A program made the position numbers and the translations under genes. Shown here one piece after another: positions 8,247 to 54,480 of a stretch of 64,000 nt of DNA. The notes under the pieces were generated by a model that saw nothing but the letters and a program-made list of their open reading frames with translations, made no database searches and had not been told where the DNA came from. This DNA comes from Anisus vortex. Its lineage: Eukaryota; Mollusca; Gastropoda; Planorbidae. The stretch spans positions 1,116,001-1,180,000 of the forward strand of contig CASBPS010000116.1 in the NCBI GenBank assembly GCA_949126835.1, in the 5' to 3' direction. Position 1 is the first letter of the stretch, and each line of letters begins with the position of its first letter.

Positions 8247-9670
8247 ATGGCAGACATAACAATAGTCACGTTAAACATGCATAGCCTTAGGAACAAACAT
8301 AAATACTTAGTTCACCTTGCAAGGAAACAAACCCGATTTCATCTTCTTGCAAAAAACCAACATAAACAAACAATTTACTGCAGACAGATACATAACAGAA
8401 ATGGGTTTCAGATATTGCATTTTTAGTTTAGGTACATTCGCGATAGTAACAGCCATAATACAAACGTCAGATAAATACAAAGTCACACACAAGCATACAG
8501 ATAACCAGGGTAGACGCACTATAATTAGAATAGAAAACAGTAACAATAAATATACACTAGTTAACATGTACGCTCCTACACAAAGCACAGAAAAACCTGC
8601 CTTCTTCGATAATTTAAATGACATTTTAAACACAACATATCAACACAATAAATCTATAATAGGTGGATACTTTAATTATAAACATGACGAACTTGACAGA
8701 GCGATCACACTTAACAAAAACAAACAAAGTAGTCACTGGTTAGAGAATACATTTAAAACATTTACACTTGTCGACGCTTACAGGAAAATATACCAAATGG
8801 ACAGGACACGACTTTTGCCCATAATGCTCTCCCAGTTAAGTCACGGCTCGATAGGTTCTATATACCGGATGGGGATACAGTTGCCAGAGTGTGCGGTGCT
8901 AAACCAAAGCGGTGCTAGTGTCGGTGGACACAGCAGCGAGGAGCCGACACAGGCATACCGGGTCGCCTCACTGGAAATTTAATAACTCCCTCTTAAAGAG
9001 TGAGTTTTACACAAAAACAATTCAAACTCTCATTCAAAACGCAATAGACAGCAGTACCACAGACCATTATACTGACATGGGAGAGACGTGGACAGTACTT
9101 ACGCATAGCATTAAACACTTAACACAAATAATATCCAAACACATTAATACGCAGCTAAGAGAGACGGAACACTTAAAACAGCAATTAGATACACTTCCAG
9201 AAGATACTTTAGAGGCACATTCAATCAAAGCACAATTAACAGAAATACAAAAGCATAAGTACTTGGGCGCAAAAACAAGATGTAGGACACGAGGTATATT
9301 AGAAGGCCCAAACAAGGTTTTTCTCACACTAGAACAAAACACACAAAGAAGACGCATTATCACACAGATACAAGACTCTACAGGAACACTACATACAGAA
9401 AACGTAGCAATGGCAAACACTTTTACATAACATTTTAAATACATCTATTATAAGGAACACACATACGACAGGGAACAAAACGATATACTGACATACTGTA
9501 AACACCTACCAGACGAAGATAAACACTTTTAGAAACACCCATTACAGTAAAGGACATTAAATTGACAAACTGAAATCGGACAAATCCCCCGGACGAGACG
9601 GTTTGACATGAGAATTCTACAAATTTGTTTCACCCCAGTTAGTTCCCTTACTACCACTCGTGTATACACA
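8247..9670 (+). pseudogene. LINE family 1 ORF2, endonuclease half, broken
   Basis: Starts 30 bp after the ORF1 stop at the ATG at 8247 (MADITIVTLNMHSLRNKH). This is the N-terminus of an APE-type endonuclease, which nicks target DNA to prime reverse transcription. After a frameshift near 8315 the motifs DFIFLQ, VNMYAPT, IIGGxFN (8660) and VDAYRK (8770) follow in order. A further shift near 8808 leads to PVKSRLDRFYIPDG and a linker running to about 9,430. The catalytic Glu of FLQET is replaced by Lys in FLQKTN, and the Asp of GGDFN is replaced by Tyr, so the endonuclease is dead apart from the frameshifts. The ORF is cut by a hAT-like element at 9,679. Confidence 0.88.
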
Positions 9671-9678
9671 TGCACAAA

Positions 9679-11198
9679 CTAAGGCATAGGTTCACAACGG
9701 GGGCGTTATCGCCCCCCAGGGGGCGGTGACATTCCCGGGGGGGGGGGGGGGGATTGGGGCGCGGTGAAGGGCAAGTGGGCGGTATAAACGTACTTGATAT
9801 AATTTTAACACCTCAGCTATTTGAATCGATTAGTTTTTGTATGAAATATGATGTTAACGCAAGTGCGGCTAAATACCTGATGTCCCCCAACAGTGGGTAC
9901 AGTAGGTATACATAATACTATAAACTAATAAGAAATAGGATTATGTTTCTAGTTTGGCTCTTAACCTTTAATATTTTGATCTCAGTTTTTAACCGAGATG
10001 TCCTTTAATATGTTTCAATCCTTAAGTAAATTTCAGAACCATCGTAAAGCGGTATAGATACGTAGTAATCATACAAACTGGGTAGTTATTGTTGTGTTTT
10101 AAAATATACATATAGGCTAAATTTATTAGTCATTTAATAGTTATACATTTTTCAAATATTTTTACAGTTTAATTATTTTAAAGTTATAAATGGAAGCCAT
10201 TTAAAAAAAAGAAAACAGAAACATTAGAAATATTAGCTCAAATGAAACGGGTTAATTATCTCCCTTTAATTAATAAATGTTTCAACATTTGATTCAATAG
10301 TGATGCCGAACAAGTTCTGTTTTGTAATGTAACAAATATTACTGATTATTATTATTTCTTTATTAAGATTCAAAATTATGGTATTCATAACAAGATTTAA
10401 TAATTAGAGACTTAAAATAGTTTACGTTAACCAGTTGTAAATAAACATTTCCTGCATTAATTATTTTGTCCATTTAAGGAGTTTATATTTTAAACATTTA
10501 TAATTACAGAAATTACATAATATAGTGCTATTAATATTAAATAAGTCTCTTCTTATATTTGTGAATTAATAAAACAAATAAATTTGTTTTAGAAATAAAT
10601 ATATTAATGTTTAATTAAAGAAGATGAGCATAAAAACTCGTTGAGCGGTCAAGTGTAGATAACATCTTTGTATCATATAGCTTAAAACAGCTTTGATGTG
10701 CGATACGATCTGTTCACAGGTGTAAGTTAAACCAAAAGCTGAAAGTAAATGATCGAATGCTAAGAAGTTGAGAATAGCAGATGACGATATAATTTTTTAT
10801 TGTTTGCGAATTTTATAATTTTCTTGTTATGGCTTTGACTATTGCTTTATTGTTTTCATGTATTTTGTGGCAAAATAAATATTGTTTATTGACGAGGGCT
10901 ACAAGCGATGGCTACTGCACTCAGAGGTGTGTTGGTTAGCAAACGATGACTGTTTAAATATAATGTGTGAGACTTGGATTTGGTGTTCGAGTTTTTGAAA
11001 AGCAAATGCCATTCTTTGGGAGAAAATCAATCAGCTTCTCTTGGTCTGTGAGTTTTGGCAACAATTTTGTATTGCATTAAGTTGATTTTATGCTAGTACC
11101 ATTCGGTAAGTGGGCGCTAAAATTAAATTGAGGGAAGGGGGCGGTGAGCGGGAAAAGAATTAAAAGGGGGCGGTGAGCCGCAAAAGGTTTAGAACCTG
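9679..11198. mobile_element. hAT-like non-autonomous insertion in the LINE
   Basis: The 8 bp direct repeat TGCACAAA flanks it exactly (9671-9678 and 11199-11206). LINE coding resumes in sense on the right (LPRMFSEAYITVLEKK). The termini carry loosely matching GCATAGGTTCACAAC and, on the other strand, GCACAGGTTCTAAAC. A GC-rich palindrome and a run of 16 G lie near 9737-9752, and G-rich GGCGGTGAG blocks lie near both ends. The 1.5 kb interior is AT-rich and has no transposase frame. An 8 bp target duplication is the hAT hallmark; the exact ends are uncertain by a few bases. Confidence 0.75.
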
Positions 11199-11206
11199 TG
11201 CACAAA

Positions 11207-12540
11207 GGGAACCCTTCCACGGATGTTCAGTGAAGCATATATCACCGTCCTGGAGAAAAAACCTGACGACAGAATATCTGTGGGGGGCTACCGACCCATT
11301 TCATGATTAAATACAGACTATAAAATTCTCACAAAGATACTTGTACACAAACTTCAACCACACCTGCACACACTTTTACACGAAAATCAATTCTGCGGCA
11401 TACCAGGCAGAAACATAGAAACTCTCAATCACACCGTTAGGGACGTTATCATATACACACATCAAAAACACGCAAGCAGCCCTGTTATCGATAGATCAAG
11501 AGAAAGCCTTTGATAGAGTGGACAAAGCTATCTATTCAAAGTGCTGCGGCAAAACAACGCGGTAAGTCAGGTCGAAGGGTGGGTCAGGCTGCTGTACGCT
11601 TTACCATATAGTAGAATCCTTGTAAACCATACACTGACCTCACCCTTCCCAATTGAAAGATTAGTCAGACAGGGCTGTCCGCTCTCATCGCTTCTGTATG
11701 CCCAGTGTCTAGAACCGCTCAGGGAAAAAGTAAGAGCTGATGCTGGAACAACGGGCATGTCAATGCCTGGAGGACAGTTGTTGAAGGTACAGGCATATGC
11801 CGATGATACCACGTTTACATTATCATCAGAAAAAGACATTATAAACATTCTGAAACATTTTCAAAGTTTCAATGCCGCATCTGGAGGGAAAATTAACATT
11901 AAAAAATCGAAAATAATGGGCCTTGTTGCCTGGAAACGAATAAAACATTTTCCGCCCAATCTTCAAAATAACACAAAAATAAAAAATACAGGCATATTTT
12001 GGCACAACAATCCACACACTTACAATACAGAACAGTACAATGGATTATTAGAAACCACAGATAAAATAATTAACATGTACTCACAAATCTCATTCACAAT
12101 TTTTAGTCGTTCCGCAATCGTTAACACTCTCATCATACCTAAAATCATATACATAGCTTCACTTTCAGAACCTCCACCACATTTCATAACAAACATGAAT
12201 AAAAAAATTAGATCCTTCTTTATTTAAATCTTCTATTCGCTCCATCCATCATAACACACTGATACAAAATAAAAGGGATGACGGGATAGGTTTACAAGTT
12301 ATAAAAACAAAGAAACAAGCAATAAGATTAAAATATGTAGGCCAAATTGTATGTGCACCTGATAAATTTTACGGTCTAAAGCTTAATAAACTTATTCCAA
12401 TTCAAAACAATACCCCTCATTATTTTGGCAATTTTTCCTCTTCATTTTACAAGTCAATTACACACATTTTACATAACAATGAACCCTTGATACATAGCAA
12501 AACAAAGAACATTGACATATCACTCATTACAGTCTGTGCA
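11207..12540 (+). pseudogene. LINE family 1 ORF2, reverse transcriptase half, broken
   Basis: Continues ORF2 beyond the hAT insertion. Motifs in order: GGYRPIS (about 11,285), ILTKIL/LHENQF, DQEKAFDRVDKA (about 11,500), LVRQGCPLSSLLYAQCLEPL (11,660-11,720), the catalytic YADD at 11,796-11,807 and the thumb region GGKINIKKSKIMG. The longest intact stretch is 11,541-12,227. Stops and shifts lie near 11,305, 11,440-11,540 and 12,225. The RT fingers and YADD are of the L1/Tx1-like style (RPISLLxxDYKI, RQGCPLSPLLY), but the clade is tentative. The 3' end merges into repeat sequence at about 12,541. Confidence 0.88.
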
Positions 12541-22424: not shown

Positions 22425-22655
22425 GGCCAGAGTACGGCAACATTTGGATAGTAGTGTGCCAGAGTAGGATCTCTTATTCATTCATAGTACCAATAGCCTA
22501 AATTTATCCTGCCCTTTTCTTTCAGAAGAGGCCTGCACTGCATTTTATGGGCTATTTCGCGTGCCAATACATATCGCTCTGCATGCCAAGTGTTGCGCGC
22601 TCTGCGGCCAAGTGTGTCACGCATGTCGTAGGTTGCCGACCACTGCTCTAGGCTC
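22425..22655. repeat. hAT-type MITE remnant
   Basis: GGCCAGAGTACGGCAACATTTGG on the left and GTAGGTTGCCGACCACTGCTC on the right are the two inverted termini of a common hAT family (CAGxGGTCGGCAACCT). Between them are repeated GTGCCAATAC/GTGCCAAGTG blocks. Parts recur at 47,360-47,470 and 56,480-56,590. Confidence 0.7.
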
Positions 22656-33829: not shown

Positions 33830-35624
33830 TACTAAACTACAACATAATGAAATGCTTCCACAAAAACAAATATTAGAAGGTAAAGTCTGATTTTCAAATT
33901 GTCAACTCTCTCATGCAAACTATTCGGCAAACTATTCAACCAGTCAACCTGGTCATAAAATCGTTAGAGAGAACGCTAAAACATCTCTCAGAAAATATAT
34001 GATTTGCTGGTGGATGGCAGAATTTAATGGACGATTTCTAAAGATATTAATCAAGATTTAATCAGCACGGTATAAAGCCATATTCAGGGTAACAGGAAAC
34101 AGAGACACTGCAGCAAGACTTGTAAAAGTCAGTAGATACATAGGCGGCACAACAGGCAACAAAAAGGTGGGTGCACGTGGCGCTCTACATCTCAACCCAC
34201 ATTACATTTTTCAAAGGTGCCGACGCTGGAATTAATAAATTTTTTTCAAGATTATATTTGGATTACGTGGAACGTTGAGAGCTGTCGTATGAATTTCTTT
34301 GTGATCAATCGTTGATCATGAAAAATTGAATTATCACGCATGAAACATTTTTAAACAAAACAGCTTCTGAATCGAGACTCTGTAATATTTTACAAAACGC
34401 TATGAAGTGAAGCAATGACGTCACACAAGATGGCGGACACTAGATACACAAGATGGCGGACACTAGATAAACAAGATGGCGGACACTAGTTCAACTAGAG
34501 GTCAACACGTGTGTGTGTGAGATCCGAAGGTAACAAGGCAATCATCAACGCATAGTATTCACTTAGTCATACTTTGTGGAATACCAAGACCTTATTGAAG
34601 ACAGATTGTACTCTAACGTACATCAATTCAAGAGATTCGTTTACATTATGCGAATTATACCTATCTCGCTATACAGTAAAGTTAATTTGAATTAATGTGA
34701 TGGAGATTGTGTTAATTAATTTAAATCATTCGTACCTGGATTAACGTCATGAAGTATGTGTTAGTTAAAATTTAAGCTACTATTAGACCATTCACTTGGA
34801 TCAAATGGATTAACTTCGTCGTCAAGAAGATTCATTGTGTTACTTAAATACTATTTAAGTTTGATATAATTAACATTTATTTTAATATTATACATGTTAA
34901 ATGATTCTTTGATAGGGTAATTTCTGTTAGCTGTATTGACTTGTTTGTTTTTGTTCAAATATTGAAGTAAAATTATTGTCTTTGTCAATGTTGATAAATA
35001 TTGTGATTCTAGTGTGAACATTTCCTCTATCACTGTTGTCCATGCAGCATTTGTGTCCTTAATTAAGATTGTGTTGTGTTTCATTTATTTTAGTTATACA
35101 TAATTGTTGTGTTGTGTTTCATTTATTTTAGTTATACATAATTGTTGTTTTGTTTTGTTTTTTAAATATAATTAATATTATTGGTTCAAGATAACCACTA
35201 TTATTTCTGATAGATTCTTGATAGTAACAATAACTATCAATTGTTTATAAATATAATTTATGCAATGGTAAATATTTATGTACACACTATAGAAAATAGT
35301 AAATAAGGCATTTTTTCAAATATAATAATTGACAATAGTCAACATTTACATACAAGTAAAGTAAATTGAAAAATAAGAAGAGAAAATAATTTATCAATCA
35401 AAATATTATGCTTTGCATTGTTCCAATTCCAAAATGCTTTCAATTATAATAGCATAGTGAATAGAAATAATAGTATTACAAGTGTTTAGCTTCAACTTAA
35501 TAATACATGGTCTACATAATAATTATAAGAATTACATTGTGAATGTACACTCTATAAATAATAATAAATAATAGCATTGTCCTGTACATAATAATATTTT
35601 ATTGTTAATGATCAAGAATTAAAT
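33830..35624 (+). other. Retrotransposon leader region
   Basis: About 1.8 kb between the primer-binding region and the gag start. It is AT-rich and has no frame of note. It holds the CRE/YY1-like cluster at 34,416-34,494 and a 34 bp direct duplication at 35,069-35,150 (GTTGTGTTTCATTTATTTTAG). Confidence 0.8.
34416..34494 (+). promoter_or_regulatory. CRE palindrome plus three YY1-like sites
   Basis: The full CRE/ATF palindrome TGACGTCA lies at 34,416-34,423. It is followed by three 23 bp tandem units starting at 34,425, 34,448 and 34,471, each ACAAGATGGCGGACACTAG. AAGATGGCGG fits the established YY1 consensus. YY1 sites drive or position transcription in mammalian L1 and in some retroviral LTRs. 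That they act as an enhancer or internal promoter here is inference. Confidence 0.6.
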
Positions 35625-38600
35625 ATGGATGTAAAAGTTAAATTAATGTATGAAGAAGCTAAAGCTTTAGCTAAGGAATTTGAAATAACAGAAAAAAAAG
35701 AATTGCAAGAATTTATAGAAAAGAAAGTAAAAGAGTTAAAAAAGGAATTATCTGATAAAGAAAGAGATGAGCGTGCAGAAAGTAGGTCACATGAACTTAA
35801 ACAAAAAGAATTAGACAATGAACTTAAACAAAAAGAATTAGAATTAGAACTAGAACTTAAACAAAAAGAAATACAACTAAAACTAGATCATGAATTAGAA
35901 CTAGCTAAATTGCAACAAAATAAGGTTGAGCATTCAACTAATTCATCTAATAAACATGGCGTTAGATTTAAAATGCCACCATTTGATGGAAAAGAAAAAA
36001 ATTTAGATTTTTTAACTCTCTTTGAAACAACATGTAAAGGGTATAACATTCCGCAATCGGAATGGTATATTCATTTAATTCCTCAATTGAAAGACAAAGG
36101 AAGGGAAGCATTAGCTCATATTGATAAAGAGATTACTGATTACACAATAATTAGAGAACAGTTGATAAAATTTTTTATCCATTCAGAGGACTATTATAGA
36201 CAAAAATTTCATTCTTTTTTATTAACTGATAAAATAGAACCAAGAGCTTTTGTCTCTGAAGTGAAATCATTCTTATTGACTTGGTTAGAACTAATCAAAA
36301 TAGACACAAAAAATCCCAATGAAATTATTGAGATGATAGTAGTAGATAAAGTGTTACAAATGGCTTCCAAACCTTTGTTTACACATATTATGGAGAGGAA
36401 AGTAAGAAATATTGAAAATTTAATAGATGCTATCTCCAATTTTAAAGATAGTAATCCCAATGTAGAACTTACTAAACAGACTCAAACAGTAAATACCATG
36501 CAAAATAGAAGACATAGGAGCTATTCACCTCCTAGAACAAATAGTCAATATGGTAGAAGACAAAACTATGGTAATGAAACAAATACAAACAGACAAAATC
36601 TTAGATGTCAATTTTGTAATCGTTATGGACATATAGAAAGATTTTGTGGTTTCAGAATAAAATATGTAAGTAACAGGTATAGACAAAATGAAAATAGACA
36701 AAATAATCAAAATTTTCAAAACAAAAACTTTCCAAGACAGAATTTTCCACAAGGAAATCAAAATCAAAATTTTACAAGACAGAATTTTCCACAAGGAAAT
36801 CAAAATCAAAACTTTACGAGACGGAATTTTCCACAAGGAAATTCTACAAATCAGCATGTTACCAATCAAAATTCTGAAAATCAAAATTTTCAGAATAGAA
36901 ATAAAGGCAATACAAATAATCCCACTACTCACAGAAACAATGTAATATTTGAGAATAAAGGTCAACTGATCTTATTCCCTGCATATGTTGAGGGAATACG
37001 TACCTATTGTCTAAGGGATACTGGTTCATCTCTCACTTGTGTAGATGAGAGAATTATTCCTCCTCATAAAGCCAAAAATATCTTAAGGATAGAAACAATT
37101 AAACTAGGTAATGGATCTATGGTTAGTTGTCCAATCACTACCATACAAATTGATACTCCTTGGCTTACAGGATATACTGAAGCAGCCATTTTAAAAAATT
37201 GTGTTGCTCCCCTAATAATAGGTAATACATATGGAGTCAAACAGGACAATAGTTTTGAAATATTTCAACAATGGATGGATCTTAAATCCACAGATTTAAA
37301 CTTAAAACCTGTAATTTTGTTAGAAAATAATCAACTGGGAGATTTATCACAAGATGAATTCGGCCCTGCCTTGCAAACTGTCAGTTTTTTACAAACACTA
37401 GGCAAGTCAGACAGTAGCATTATTAATGACACACCTAATATAGATATACCTATAAACAAAGTGAAAGAAAATCTAATGCCTAAATGGAATGGTACAGAGA
37501 AATTGAATCAATATATTGAAAGGTTTGAAGAACAATGTGAAATAAATAATATACCTAAACAATTGCATGCCATATCACTGTGCAAACATTTAGAAAATCA
37601 CAAAGCAATATACAATATTGCAGAGAAAGAAATCAATGACTTTCAAACATTGAAAACAAACATTTTAGCATATATTGATACTACTCAAAAGAAAACTGAA
37701 ACACAAATGAAAAAACGTGAACAGATTAGCTTAAATAGTATGCCTTTTGATGAACAAACTTTGAAAAATGAACAAAAACAAGATGAGTATATAAACAAAA
37801 TTGTGTCACAACTTGGTAAAGAAAATTTTAAACAAGGACAAATGAAATTAATTAATGGAATTCTTTGTAGGATAGAAACAAAATCTGATATAACTCAAAT
37901 AGTTGTGCCAAAATCTTTGACAGTGCAAATAATGAAAATTTCGCATGATAATGCATTAGCAGGTCACTTAAGTACAAAAAAAACTTGTAACAAAATCAAA
38001 AACAACTTCTGGTGGCCTAATTTAGAAAAGGATTTGAAAACGTTCATAAAAAGTTGTTCAACATGTCTGATACATAATCAGAAAAATTCAAAACATAAAG
38101 CACCTTTACAAAAAACAGATACTGTAGACAAACCTTTTGTAAAGATAGCCATTGATATTATTGGACCTATGAAAGAAGCTAGGAATTCAAAAGCAAAATT
38201 TGCATTAACACTCATAGATATGGGTAGTAGATGGGTGGAAGTAATCCCTCTAAGAGAAATAACCGCAGATAGAGTATGTAACTCACTATTGCCAATATTC
38301 TGCAGATTTGGATTTCCTAAAACTATATTAAGTGATAATGGTACCCAATTCAAATCCAAATTGACTCAAGCTTTTACTAAAATGCTCAACATAACACAAA
38401 TTTTTAGTTCAATCTACCACCCAGAGTCAAATGGTATGGTTGAAAGGGCAAATCAAACTATAAAACAAATGTTAGCTAAGGTTTGCGAAGAACACCCTTA
38501 TGAATGGGATGAATTCCTACCAGCCATTCTCTTTGCTTATAGACAGGCAAAGCATGAAAGCACTGGTTACTCACCTTTTGAGTTAATCTTTGGTAGAAAT

Positions 38601-39665
38601 GCCAATGGTCCATTAGAGAATTTTAAAGCAGAATTACTAAAAACCAAAGAAACAAAAATGTCACCTTTTGATCTAATAAATAAGACAGAAAAACATATGA
38701 AAACAGCATATCAATTTGCTGTGGAAAAAAACCAAGAAATTAAAGAAAAAACCATACTTAGAGAAAACATGAATAAAAACTTAAGAAAGTTAGAAATAGG
38801 AAACAAAGTACTTGTATATTTACCCATTGGTTCTGGTAATACCATGCAATGGAAAGGTCCTTATGACATTATACATAAATTGTCAGATGTTACATATAAA
38901 ATTGACATAAATGGTAGTGAAAAAATTGTTCACATCAACAATTTAAGACATTATGAAGAAAGCAATATAGTTGATACTACATCAAAAACTAATGACAAAA
39001 TAGAAAACAACAATGTTATCATCGTTGAAGATGAAAATATTAAAGACATTCCAAGTAATGTTAACTACTTGTGTGGCATGACCGCAAATACAACTAATGA
39101 ATTAGAGCAAATTAACTTAGATCATATTCAAAGTGTAGAAACTAAAAATAAAATTGTGAAAATATTAAACAAATTTAAAGATACAATCACAGAAACACCT
39201 GGTTTGACTAATGTCATTGAACATACAATAGAATTAACTGACAAAAAAGAGTTTAGATCAAAAGCTTATAGAATTCCACAAATGCTAGTTGACAAAGTGG
39301 ATAAAGAATTGGACCAATTAATTGAAAATAAGATTATAAACAAATCTATGTCTCAATACTCTTCACCAATGGTAATAGTAAAAAAAAAAAATGGTTCAAT
39401 TAGACTTTGCTGTGACTATCGCAAATTAAATAAAATCACAAAAATTGATCAAGAAGGGTTACCTAACATAGACAATATCATCAATACTATGGCAACTGGG
39501 AAAATATTTTCCACTATAGACTTGACCAGAGGTTTTTGGCAAGTACCTCTAGATAAAAATTCTAAAGATTACGCAGCTTTTATCACACATAGAGGTGTGT
39601 TTAACTGGAATGTAATGCCATTTGGTCTCATAAATAGTACTGCAACTTTCACTAAATTAATGTGA
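35625..39665 (+). CDS. Gag-Pol polyprotein: capsid, zinc knuckle, protease, integrase, RT N-terminal half
   Basis: A 1,346-residue frame from ATG 35,625. Residues 1-105 form a Lys/Glu-rich coiled coil with ELKQKEL repeats. Residues 117-270 are capsid-like. There is a zinc knuckle C328-C331-H336-C341 and a 14-residue Asn/Gln repeat (RQNFPQGNQNQNFT, three copies) at about 370-410. The protease has DTGSS at 465-469 and LIIG at 530-533. Residues 618-684 resemble the first capsid domain again. The integrase has the zinc finger H774-H781-C811-C814, catalytic D844-D904-E940 (D-x59-D-x35-E) and GPY at 1078-1080. The RT begins near 1243 (SSPMVIVKKKNGSIRLC) with motif-A Asp1299 in DLTRGFWQ. The frame stops at TGA 39,663-39,665 just before the RT YVDD motif. 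No frameshift separates gag and pol. Confidence 0.95.
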   Translation: MDVKVKLMYEEAKALAKEFEITEKKELQEFIEKKVKELKKELSDKERDERAESRSHELKQKELDNELKQKELELELELKQKEIQLKLDHELELAKLQQNKVEHSTNSSNKHGVRFKMPPFDGKEKNLDFLTLFETTCKGYNIPQSEWYIHLIPQLKDKGREALAHIDKEITDYTIIREQLIKFFIHSEDYYRQKFHSFLLTDKIEPRAFVSEVKSFLLTWLELIKIDTKNPNEIIEMIVVDKVLQMASKPLFTHIMERKVRNIENLIDAISNFKDSNPNVELTKQTQTVNTMQNRRHRSYSPPRTNSQYGRRQNYGNETNTNRQNLRCQFCNRYGHIERFCGFRIKYVSNRYRQNENRQNNQNFQNKNFPRQNFPQGNQNQNFTRQNFPQGNQNQNFTRRNFPQGNSTNQHVTNQNSENQNFQNRNKGNTNNPTTHRNNVIFENKGQLILFPAYVEGIRTYCLRDTGSSLTCVDERIIPPHKAKNILRIETIKLGNGSMVSCPITTIQIDTPWLTGYTEAAILKNCVAPLIIGNTYGVKQDNSFEIFQQWMDLKSTDLNLKPVILLENNQLGDLSQDEFGPALQTVSFLQTLGKSDSSIINDTPNIDIPINKVKENLMPKWNGTEKLNQYIERFEEQCEINNIPKQLHAISLCKHLENHKAIYNIAEKEINDFQTLKTNILAYIDTTQKKTETQMKKREQISLNSMPFDEQTLKNEQKQDEYINKIVSQLGKENFKQGQMKLINGILCRIETKSDITQIVVPKSLTVQIMKISHDNALAGHLSTKKTCNKIKNNFWWPNLEKDLKTFIKSCSTCLIHNQKNSKHKAPLQKTDTVDKPFVKIAIDIIGPMKEARNSKAKFALTLIDMGSRWVEVIPLREITADRVCNSLLPIFCRFGFPKTILSDNGTQFKSKLTQAFTKMLNITQIFSSIYHPESNGMVERANQTIKQMLAKVCEEHPYEWDEFLPAILFAYRQAKHESTGYSPFELIFGRNANGPLENFKAELLKTKETKMSPFDLINKTEKHMKTAYQFAVEKNQEIKEKTILRENMNKNLRKLEIGNKVLVYLPIGSGNTMQWKGPYDIIHKLSDVTYKIDINGSEKIVHINNLRHYEESNIVDTTSKTNDKIENNNVIIVEDENIKDIPSNVNYLCGMTANTTNELEQINLDHIQSVETKNKIVKILNKFKDTITETPGLTNVIEHTIELTDKKEFRSKAYRIPQMLVDKVDKELDQLIENKIINKSMSQYSSPMVIVKKKNGSIRLCCDYRKLNKITKIDQEGLPNIDNIINTMATGKIFSTIDLTRGFWQVPLDKNSKDYAAFITHRGVFNWNVMPFGLINSTATFTKLM

Positions 39666-40535
39666 AAAATTCTTCCTCAAAGAAACAACATAATTCACTA
39701 TGTGGATGATGTGTGTATATATACAGAAACTTGGGATGAACACTTGACTATTTTAGAAGAAGTCTTACAAATACTAAAAGATAACAATTTAACTGTATCC
39801 CCAACTAAATTAAAGATAGGACAAACAGAAATTGAATTCCTGGGACATACATTTTCTAATGGCCAAGTCAAGCCAACAGAACAATTACACAAAAAGATCT
39901 TAGAAATAAAGACACCTAAAACTAAGAAAGAAGTTAGAGCACTCTTAGGTTTATTCAATTATTACAGCAAGTTTATTCCAAAATACAGTCAAATAGTTAG
40001 ACCTATCATAGATCTTACAAAAAAATTTCAACCAAATTATGTAAATTGGAATAATGAATGTGAACAATCATTCAGACAACTAGTTAATGAGTTTTCTAAA
40101 GAACCAATTCTGGAAACTATTCAGAAAAATGATGAAATTATTTTAGCCTGTGATGCCTCAAAAATAGGACTAGGTGCTTGTATTTTTAAGAAAGTAATGA
40201 TAGATTCAGAAATGGTGTACAAACCAGCATTCTATATAAGCCGTGCATTAACAAATAGTGAAAAAAATTTCAGTATATTGGAATTGGAAGGTTTATGCAT
40301 AGCTTATGCTGTATTGAAATTTCAATACTATTTGTTAGGACGTAAGTTTACAATTCTCACAGATCACAAACCATTAGTAAATTTTAATGTGTCAAATGTA
40401 AATAACAAACGCATAAACAAATATGCATTATTACTATCTGATTATCAGTTTCAGATCAAAAGCATAGTTGGAAAAGATAATCATTTGCCAGATGTGTTAT
40501 CAAGATTATCCATTTATATCCCAGATATTGAATAG
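39666..40535 (+). CDS. Gag-Pol continuation: RT C-terminal half and RNase H
   Basis: Same reading frame as the preceding polyprotein, separated only by the TGA at 39,663. The frame has no ATG at the right place (the first candidate is GTG at 39,702), so it is not an independent gene. It contains HYVDD with the two catalytic Asp codons at 39,705-39,710, then EFLGHTF and the connection EVRALLGLFNYYSKFIP. RNase H follows with CDASKIGLGA (Asp codon 40,152), the Glu in LELEGL (near 40,284), LTDHKPL (Asp codon 40,362) and the C-terminal DVLSRL. It ends at 40,535, about 330 bp before the 3' LTR. No integrase follows, which confirms the unusual order. Confidence 0.93.
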   Translation, partial: KILPQRNNIIHYVDDVCIYTETWDEHLTILEEVLQILKDNNLTVSPTKLKIGQTEIEFLGHTFSNGQVKPTEQLHKKILEIKTPKTKKEVRALLGLFNYYSKFIPKYSQIVRPIIDLTKKFQPNYVNWNNECEQSFRQLVNEFSKEPILETIQKNDEIILACDASKIGLGACIFKKVMIDSEMVYKPAFYISRALTNSEKNFSILELEGLCIAYAVLKFQYYLLGRKFTILTDHKPLVNFNVSNVNNKRINKYALLLSDYQFQIKSIVGKDNHLPDVLSRLSIYIPDIE

Positions 40536-53530: not shown

Positions 53531-53542
53531 AGCCTTAATTCT

Positions 53543-53764
53543 TTTTTTTAAATTTCCGGTAGGAGGCACGGCGGAGTTTGATCTCCTTGCCCCTCCTTTG
53601 GGCCTACTAGGCATCGTATAGTTATGAGAGCCGTAGCTCGGAGGGTGGGGTAACTCAGACCTCCTACACAGTTGTGAAAAATCTAATCGCACAAGGCGGA
53701 GAAGATCTACACATTGTGTGAGGAAGCCAGAGTGATCGAACTTAGCCAAAAGGCCGAGAAGCGA
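53543..53764 (-). mobile_element. Retroposon headed by the 5' end of U2 snRNA
   Basis: On the minus strand it begins TCGCTTCTCGGCCTTTTGGC + TAAG, the first bases of U2 snRNA from nucleotide 2. About 195 bp of unrelated sequence follow, then an A-rich tail (AAATTTAAAAAAA). The perfect 10 bp duplication CCTTAATTCT flanks it (53,533-53,542 and 53,765-53,774). The empty site is visible in related repeat X copies as GCCTTAATTATAAGGCTGTTC (22,684; 47,502; 56,625). It is therefore a genuine LINE-mobilised insertion: either a snRNA-headed SINE or a one-off U2 chimera made by template switching. The 73-codon frame inside looks incidental. Confidence 0.85.
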
Positions 53765-54480
53765 CCTTAATTCTAAGACTGTTCATAAATTTTATTTACA
53801 AACTCTCTAACGGGTACGAGTAAATGCAAACTAATGAAAACAAGATAGTAGCTAAAGAGGTGTTACATATTGATATTTACAATTTATAAATATTAATAAC
53901 AATTTTTTTAAATAATTTAATGTATATTTTTAGAAATATGAGCGACAATCTAAATTTGAACAAAACGGTTTTTAATTTAATGCAAATTAAGAAGTAGATC
54001 TAAACAAATCATGAACAAATAGGATTGCTCTACGACATACAATGGCATATTATCTCCCTTGATTAGATTTTGAATTTACTCTAGATGCCTAAAAAATTAA
54101 GGTAGACGGAAATGTATCGTGACTATAACAAATTAATTAATATGCCATTCACTTAGTCTATGTAATATTTCGTATCTAATGTGCACAATTCAGAACGTTT
54201 GTAGTAAATAATTTAAATTACAAAAGTAACAATTATAACATTTTCCCAATGTTTTCTTCCAACTTGGTTTACTACGCTTGTATAATATCTTAAACCATTT
54301 CCATGGCGACGGCATGTACATTTATGCTTGTTTAAATATAATTTAACTTTATGATATAATATAATCAATATTTTAGTTGTATAATTCTCTCTGTAAGTGT
54401 TTTAACTTTCTCTGTCATTCTACTTGTATTTTCCAACTGCATACCGTAAGCATTGAGAATACTAAATGTAATGGAAAGAA
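53765..54480 (-). repeat. Repeat X, reverse copy
   Basis: AAATGCAAACTAATGAAAACAAGATAGTAGC, ATATTATCTCCCTTG near 54,050 and CTTCCAACTTGGTTTACTACGC are reverse-complement landmarks. Confidence 0.8.

Follow-up and report, generated by a model that had tools for sequence, protein, structure and literature searches.

A young SINE family with a U2 snRNA head in the snail Anisus vortex, and a LINE that occupies the same hAT-like target

How did the 5' end of U2 snRNA come to stand at the front of an otherwise unrelated insertion in a snail genome, and is that insertion a solitary accident or one member of a multiplying family? The window, by which we mean the whole stretch of 64,000 nucleotides analysed here (C92:1116001-1180000 of the 863-Mb, 159-contig genome), carries the element on its minus strand, from 53764 down to 53543, as read from the sequence and confirmed by genome matches. 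It opens with TCGCTTCTCGGCCTTTTGGCTAAG, which is U2 nt 2-25 (53741..53764, minus strand), continues into a body, and closes with the A-rich tail AAATTTAAAAAAA (53543..53555, minus strand). A perfect 10-bp duplication, CCTTAATTCT on the plus strand, lies at 53533-53542 on the 3' side of the element and at 53765-53774 on its 5' side. The sequence-only reading that singled out this locus had described a U2-headed element with an A-rich tail, a perfect duplication and unoccupied relatives of the site nearby, and all of these are present, the last as six diverged copies of the surrounding repeat within the window that lack the insert. The hAT-type terminal repeat GGTTGCCGACCACTG abuts three such unoccupied relatives, at window positions 22631, 47450 and 56571.

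The assignment of the head to U2 is based on a shuffle test and on the genome's own U2 gene. With up to three mismatches allowed, a 21-mer of the head has a single match in the window, and none of 100 shuffles contained one. The Rfam model of U2 aligns the head at 16.4 bits (E 0.37), far under the cut-off of 46, which may be expected because the head represents 25 of the 192 nt of U2. At gathering scores Rfam found no matches in the window, nor did ARAGORN, and the exact 24-nt head was absent from the viral contigs. Weak Rfam matches to the molybdenum riboswitch and to mir-254 were set aside as chance, the second of them overlapping a real 81-nt hairpin that is described below.

Copy number answers the question of family or accident. 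A first look across the genome returned 591 candidates, and all 40 that were scored proved 96-100% identical; a 35-mer spanning the U2/body junction occurs with up to three mismatches at 189 places and a 33-mer of the 3' end at 245, the reversed control giving none in either case. Had the element been a single template-switch chimera of U2 RNA and another RNA, with no family behind it, it would have had precedent in the small-RNA chimeras known for mammalian LINE-1 (PMC13174262). The U6/LINE-1 and other chimeras described there resemble our element in that a small RNA has been joined to another RNA by LINE machinery, but the chimera in A. vortex became a multiplying family. The recurrence of one junction throughout the genome, the near identity of the scored copies, and the flanks and duplications that differ from copy to copy refute the single chimera, to which we assign a negligible probability; the first copy may still have originated by a switch. 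The sequence-only reading had proposed just this count as the way to tell a SINE family from a one-copy chimera, and with head and body common to many copies, not one, the outcome is that the element is a young SINE family with a U2 head. It is short and non-coding, with many dispersed copies and defined ends, the inspected loci have A-rich tails, and target-site duplications exceed the 95% null in 11 of 37 loci.

Those 37 distinct loci were drawn from the 40 best matches and thus represent the youngest end of the family. The window insertion is present four times in duplicated segments, three of them on C92 and one on C2, and since these (L001-L004, with the window copy as L002) constitute one insertion, L001, L003 and L004 were taken out before counting. 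Pairwise identity among the 37 has a median of 98%, and each differs at 0-10 positions from a consensus that is 213 nt long when the tail is taken only as far as its first As; L005, L006 and L010 are identical to that consensus. More diverged and truncated copies exist beyond this set, among them 5'-truncated copies in the series L083-L090, where L090 shows a duplication visible by eye. When a LINE sharing the SINE 3' end was sought at eight 3'-end places for which no head was among the matches listed, all eight turned out to be diverged, rearranged or 5'-truncated SINEs. We also observed head-to-tail SINE arrays with a spacing of 236-240 bp, including five 3' ends in a row at C8:29025711-29026694 and further examples at C5:37063888/37064125, C16:23143843/23144079 and C1:5804173/5804413; they stem either from successive insertions into the same target or from a satellite in its early stages.

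The family consensus opens with ATCGCTTCTCGG, at U2 nt 1, and follows the U2 gene of this genome without a mismatch for exactly 25 nt (25/25 from nt 1) before diverging; the body has no similarity to the rest of U2 (58 of 300 shuffles were as good). Thus, an earlier placing of the start at U2 nt 2 is correct for the window copy, in which a G stands where U2 nt 1 would be, but does not extend to the family. TCGC is found at nt 2-5 in 26 of the 37 loci, 24 of these with A at nt 1, and the other 11 are truncated or changed in the head. In the one pattern test made for an alternative head (exact 17-mer body start, non-U2 letters at two head positions), no clear case emerged; the pattern occurred at four places, all reading AAG at U2 nt 23-25.

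At the RNA level, the consensus folds better than its shuffles (z -4.3, 0/200 as good), and positions 33-113 form an 81-nt hairpin that none of 200 dinucleotide shuffles equalled (z -5.3); these values belong to the family consensus, and the stretch that matches the hairpin in the window copy is 53653..53733 on the minus strand. The head lengthens U2 stem-loop I, with ATCG pairing with CGAT past the junction (z -2.1, 7/200 shuffles as good).

It seems appropriate to ask whether the U2 head by chance created an A-box, so that every copy of a pol III SINE would travel with its own promoter, as the resemblance noted from the sequence had suggested. The string TGGCTAAGTTCG at consensus 18-29 does agree with the A-box consensus at 11 of 12 positions. 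However, the best B-box-like strings reach 8 of 11 and overlap the A-box-like string, and in 24 of the 37 copies the first nucleotide is precisely U2 +1, where pol II natively initiates. Runs of TTTT or TTTTT may terminate pol III inside an element, and the SINE consensus has TTTT at 15 and TTTTT at 85-89. The proposed promoter is therefore unproven and doubtful, mainly because TTTTT lies within the body and there is no good B-box, and we regard pol III transcription of this kind as improbable. We also abandoned the separate notion of a U2-type promoter provided by the target, as the similarity between the U2 promoter region and the target 5' flank was equalled by 345 of 500 and 162 of 500 shuffles.

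The SINE inserts preferentially in one hAT-like repeat family, beside a hairpin motif. The 5' flanks of 33 of the 37 loci match this family, against a background coverage of 3.9% in a 100-kb sample composed of the window and the distal parts of eight loci; the four loci outside it are the window insertion, L009, L015 and L062, and in L015 the 5' flank is itself a LINE that ends at the target. Measured copies of the target are about 1.3-2 kb long, with ends like TAGAGCAGGGGTCGGCAACC...GGTTGCCGACCCCTGCTCTAG whose motif is hAT-like, the terminal inverted repeats being of the CAGGGGTCGGCAACC type. Among eight long loci searched with up to three mismatches, such repeats were found at both ends in five, at one end in two and at neither in one. 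The target thus appears to be an old, diverged, hAT-like DNA transposon family. Within it, the SINE sits roughly 400 bp from one end. A conserved block was matched in 31 in-family loci, and in 29 of these the SINE follows it by 36-76 bp, although the criterion was a loose one, tolerating up to 8 errors in 24, and also placed the block in the four loci outside the family. The hairpin beside the insertion, GGACATCTCGGTAAAACTGAGATCAAAATAT, exceeds the 99th percentile of the background near 19 of the 37 insertions and fails to do so near the other 18. Its 28-mer, with up to two mismatches, occurs at 2,087 places (1042 + 1045; reversed control 0). The window also holds part of an unoccupied target copy at 9972..10785 (minus strand, 73.6% identical to the L077 copy), whose hairpin motif GGACATCTCGGTTAAAAACTGAGATCAAAATAT matches at 9971..10003 (minus strand).

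One could argue that this preference is illusory, and that a SINE already resident in a transposon was hitch-hiking when its host later multiplied. A real case of such copying exists in the four-fold window insertion noted above. In the remaining 32 loci compared (L002, L009, L015, L018 and L062 excluded), the flanks have a median identity of only 65%, and thus differ by about 35% where the SINEs differ by about 2%, and wherever duplications are clear they differ between loci. It follows that the target is old and that the insertions are separate, and hitch-hiking strikes us as very improbable as a general account.

What, then, moves the SINE? A young LINE also sits at its hAT-like target. An A-run followed by the target motif was found at 16 places, of which six were examined: one is a known SINE locus, three are LINEs and two are neither. 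The letters upstream of four such places show that L092 and L094 carry one LINE 3' end and that two do not, and at a further place, C4:5759593, a LINE 3'UTR match is found 0.8 kb upstream. In L015 and L005/L081, relatives of the L092/L094 3' end stand next to the SINE at that target. The 3' end has many young copies (661 candidates; the 40 scored reach 98-100%), and the longer 3'UTR from L015 gave 261 candidates, 40 of them scored at 97-100%. A reverse transcriptase lies 910-924 bp upstream at 29 of the 40 scored L015 3'UTR places, in a pairing that used 61 of 151 reverse-transcriptase places, many of them chosen for their nearness to 3'UTR places. An open frame of 1118 aa was found at 16 places among the matches listed, three of which belong to the 29, and the C-terminal piece of L096 weakly resembles a zinc-binding domain (zf-RVT at E 0.006, which does not reach the cut-off); in a stretch upstream of one LINE copy no coding frame was seen.

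A relative of this LINE is present in the window, where a reverse transcriptase (RVT_1) at 11517..12227 on the plus strand shares 74-83%, mostly about 82%, amino acid identity with that of the hAT-site LINE. An endonuclease-like part at 8311..8982 (plus strand; Exo_endo_phos_2, E 0.0011, below the Pfam cut-off) probably belongs to the same LINE. Long gag-pol-like open frames at window 35595-40535 mark an apparent LTR retrotransposon.

We consider it probable that the hAT-target LINE moves the SINE. Because the 3' ends of the two are unlike, with no detectable similarity between the SINE 3' end or body and the LINE 3' end or 3'UTR (81/100 shuffles as good), the pairing of partners rests on a shared target and on poly(A). 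From the window relative we infer that the helper has an AP-type endonuclease; such a LINE would use target-primed reverse transcription, starting at the A-rich tail of the SINE RNA, to copy that RNA after a nick that would fall beside the hairpin motif inside the old hAT-like transposon. The 5' end of the SINE may often be joined through a few bases common to the target and the U2 head. At 11 loci these shared bases number 0, 3, 3, 0, 2, 6, 0, 1, 5, 2 and 0 (mean 2.0 nt), where the values for L002, L011 and L015 count only U2-matching letters and all are raw counts. The set comprises ten loci with above-null duplications plus L019, from an attempt on 14 loci in which L021 and L069 yielded no duplication and L070 yielded an unrelated one. 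In L015, for example, the TCTCGG of the target and the TCTCGG of U2 are fused. Many other loci show no clear duplication despite sitting in the target.

Relatives of the likely helper are found in U2 genes themselves. The 46 U2 genes scored form arrays on C8 (32) and C9 (14), and reverse-transcriptase relatives with 40-62% identity occur at these arrays. Junctions of poly(A) with U2 nt 34 number 14 (13 on C8 and one on C9, control 0), all at U2 arrays, and a hand comparison of coordinates places a listed reverse transcriptase with 45-62% identity 3.0-3.7 kb upstream of each. Both junctions were read for one of the 14 insertions, on C9, where the LINE is bordered by U2 nt 43 on one side and nt 34 on the other, and GTAGTATCTG forms a 10-bp duplication. 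The 3' ends of the U2-gene LINE and the hAT-site LINE are alike (3/2000 shuffles as good). Keno is an AP-endonuclease LINE in U2 genes, and the 3' flanks of Utopia and Keno start at U2 nt 39 (PMC4640811). The U2-gene LINE in A. vortex is Keno-like in being poly(A)-tailed and inserted at one site in U2 genes near the same place, but its 3' flank starts from U2 nt 34 (33 in human numbering), about 6 nt upstream of the exact Keno/Utopia position. The interrupted U2 units seem to have been amplified as tandem units, mostly of about 10.3 kb (C8:11784851-11877194), and a related LINE 3' end with an A-tail sits in U2 spacer DNA, with a U2 gene about 1.4 kb downstream (L034:1-118).

The presence of related LINEs at one nucleotide inside U2 genes suggests how the head could derive from U2-initiated RNA. 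An element put into a U2 gene by a U2-targeting LINE lineage, and transcribed from the U2 promoter, would give an RNA that starts at U2 +1, just as the RNA of a LINE in a U2 gene would carry the U2 5' end; the source of the head would then be a lineage living in U2 genes and transcribed from the U2 start site. This hypothesis of U2-initiated co-transcription, whose odds we place below even and at best approaching them, gains support from three observations: the family starts exactly at +1, no internal promoter is convincing, and related LINEs occur in U2 genes. It is weakened because no SINE was found in U2 arrays among the places listed (100 of 189 junction and 100 of 245 3'-end places), so that a promoter-bearing master copy was not seen. 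The same result is in keeping with another origin, in which reverse transcription of an older body switched template to U2 RNA and so gained the head, with no connection to insertion in a U2 gene. The sharp junction at nt 25, with no 3' part of U2, agrees with such a switch, to which we give a substantial chance, if still a minority one; against it stand the U2-gene location of the likely helper's relatives and the failure of the one test made to reveal a headless parent family.

A more elaborate version of the co-transcription hypothesis, and an unlikely one in our view, would have the SINE born as a U2-gene co-transcript, with the lineage later retargeted to a U2-like hAT hairpin (TCTCGG...CTGAGATCAAA) and the head aiding 5' closure by homology. 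In an analogous way, upstream rRNA helps R2 to close its 5' junction by homology. The resemblance of the hAT motif to U2 is only suggestive, as its likeness to U2 nt 7-31 was matched by 7 of 1000 shuffles in one test and by 358 and 228 of 5000 in a second, and the reverse complement of one motif scores nearly as well against U2 as the forward strand (22.5 versus 23.5). Taken as a whole, the explanation that joins a young, U2-headed family and its preferred target, used by a LINE as well, to target-primed reverse transcription and a U2 RNA origin of the head has, in our estimate, a probability of roughly 80%.

To our knowledge, snRNA-headed SINEs had previously come only from crocodilians. There, work by Kojima in 2015 (GBE) reportedly describes SINEU families with a head derived from U1 or U2, a Mariner target and a helper called Tx1-Mar. 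These are the closest known relative of the A. vortex SINE, and both combine an snRNA head with a DNA-transposon target that is also used by a LINE, reportedly of the Tx1 clade in crocodilians. The target is said to be Mariner in crocodilians, whereas it is hAT-like here; in addition, the A. vortex SINE has a single 25-nt U2 head with no re-heading seen, and its LINE relatives sit in U2 genes themselves. By the defining feature, an snRNA-derived head, the A. vortex SINE is of SINEU type, although shared descent with the crocodilian families seems unlikely. SINEU is a recognised class (PMC8010984, PMC5753468). No snRNA-headed SINE outside vertebrates appeared among the titles and abstract openings of the open-licence literature matches listed, which is weak evidence of novelty.

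With this second, young case of an snRNA-headed SINE, whose probable helper LINE has relatives in U2 genes, the acquisition of an snRNA head by a SINE becomes directly testable. The findings further suggest that one non-LTR lineage has members with two distinct specific targets, and that this SINE may be able to do without an internal promoter.
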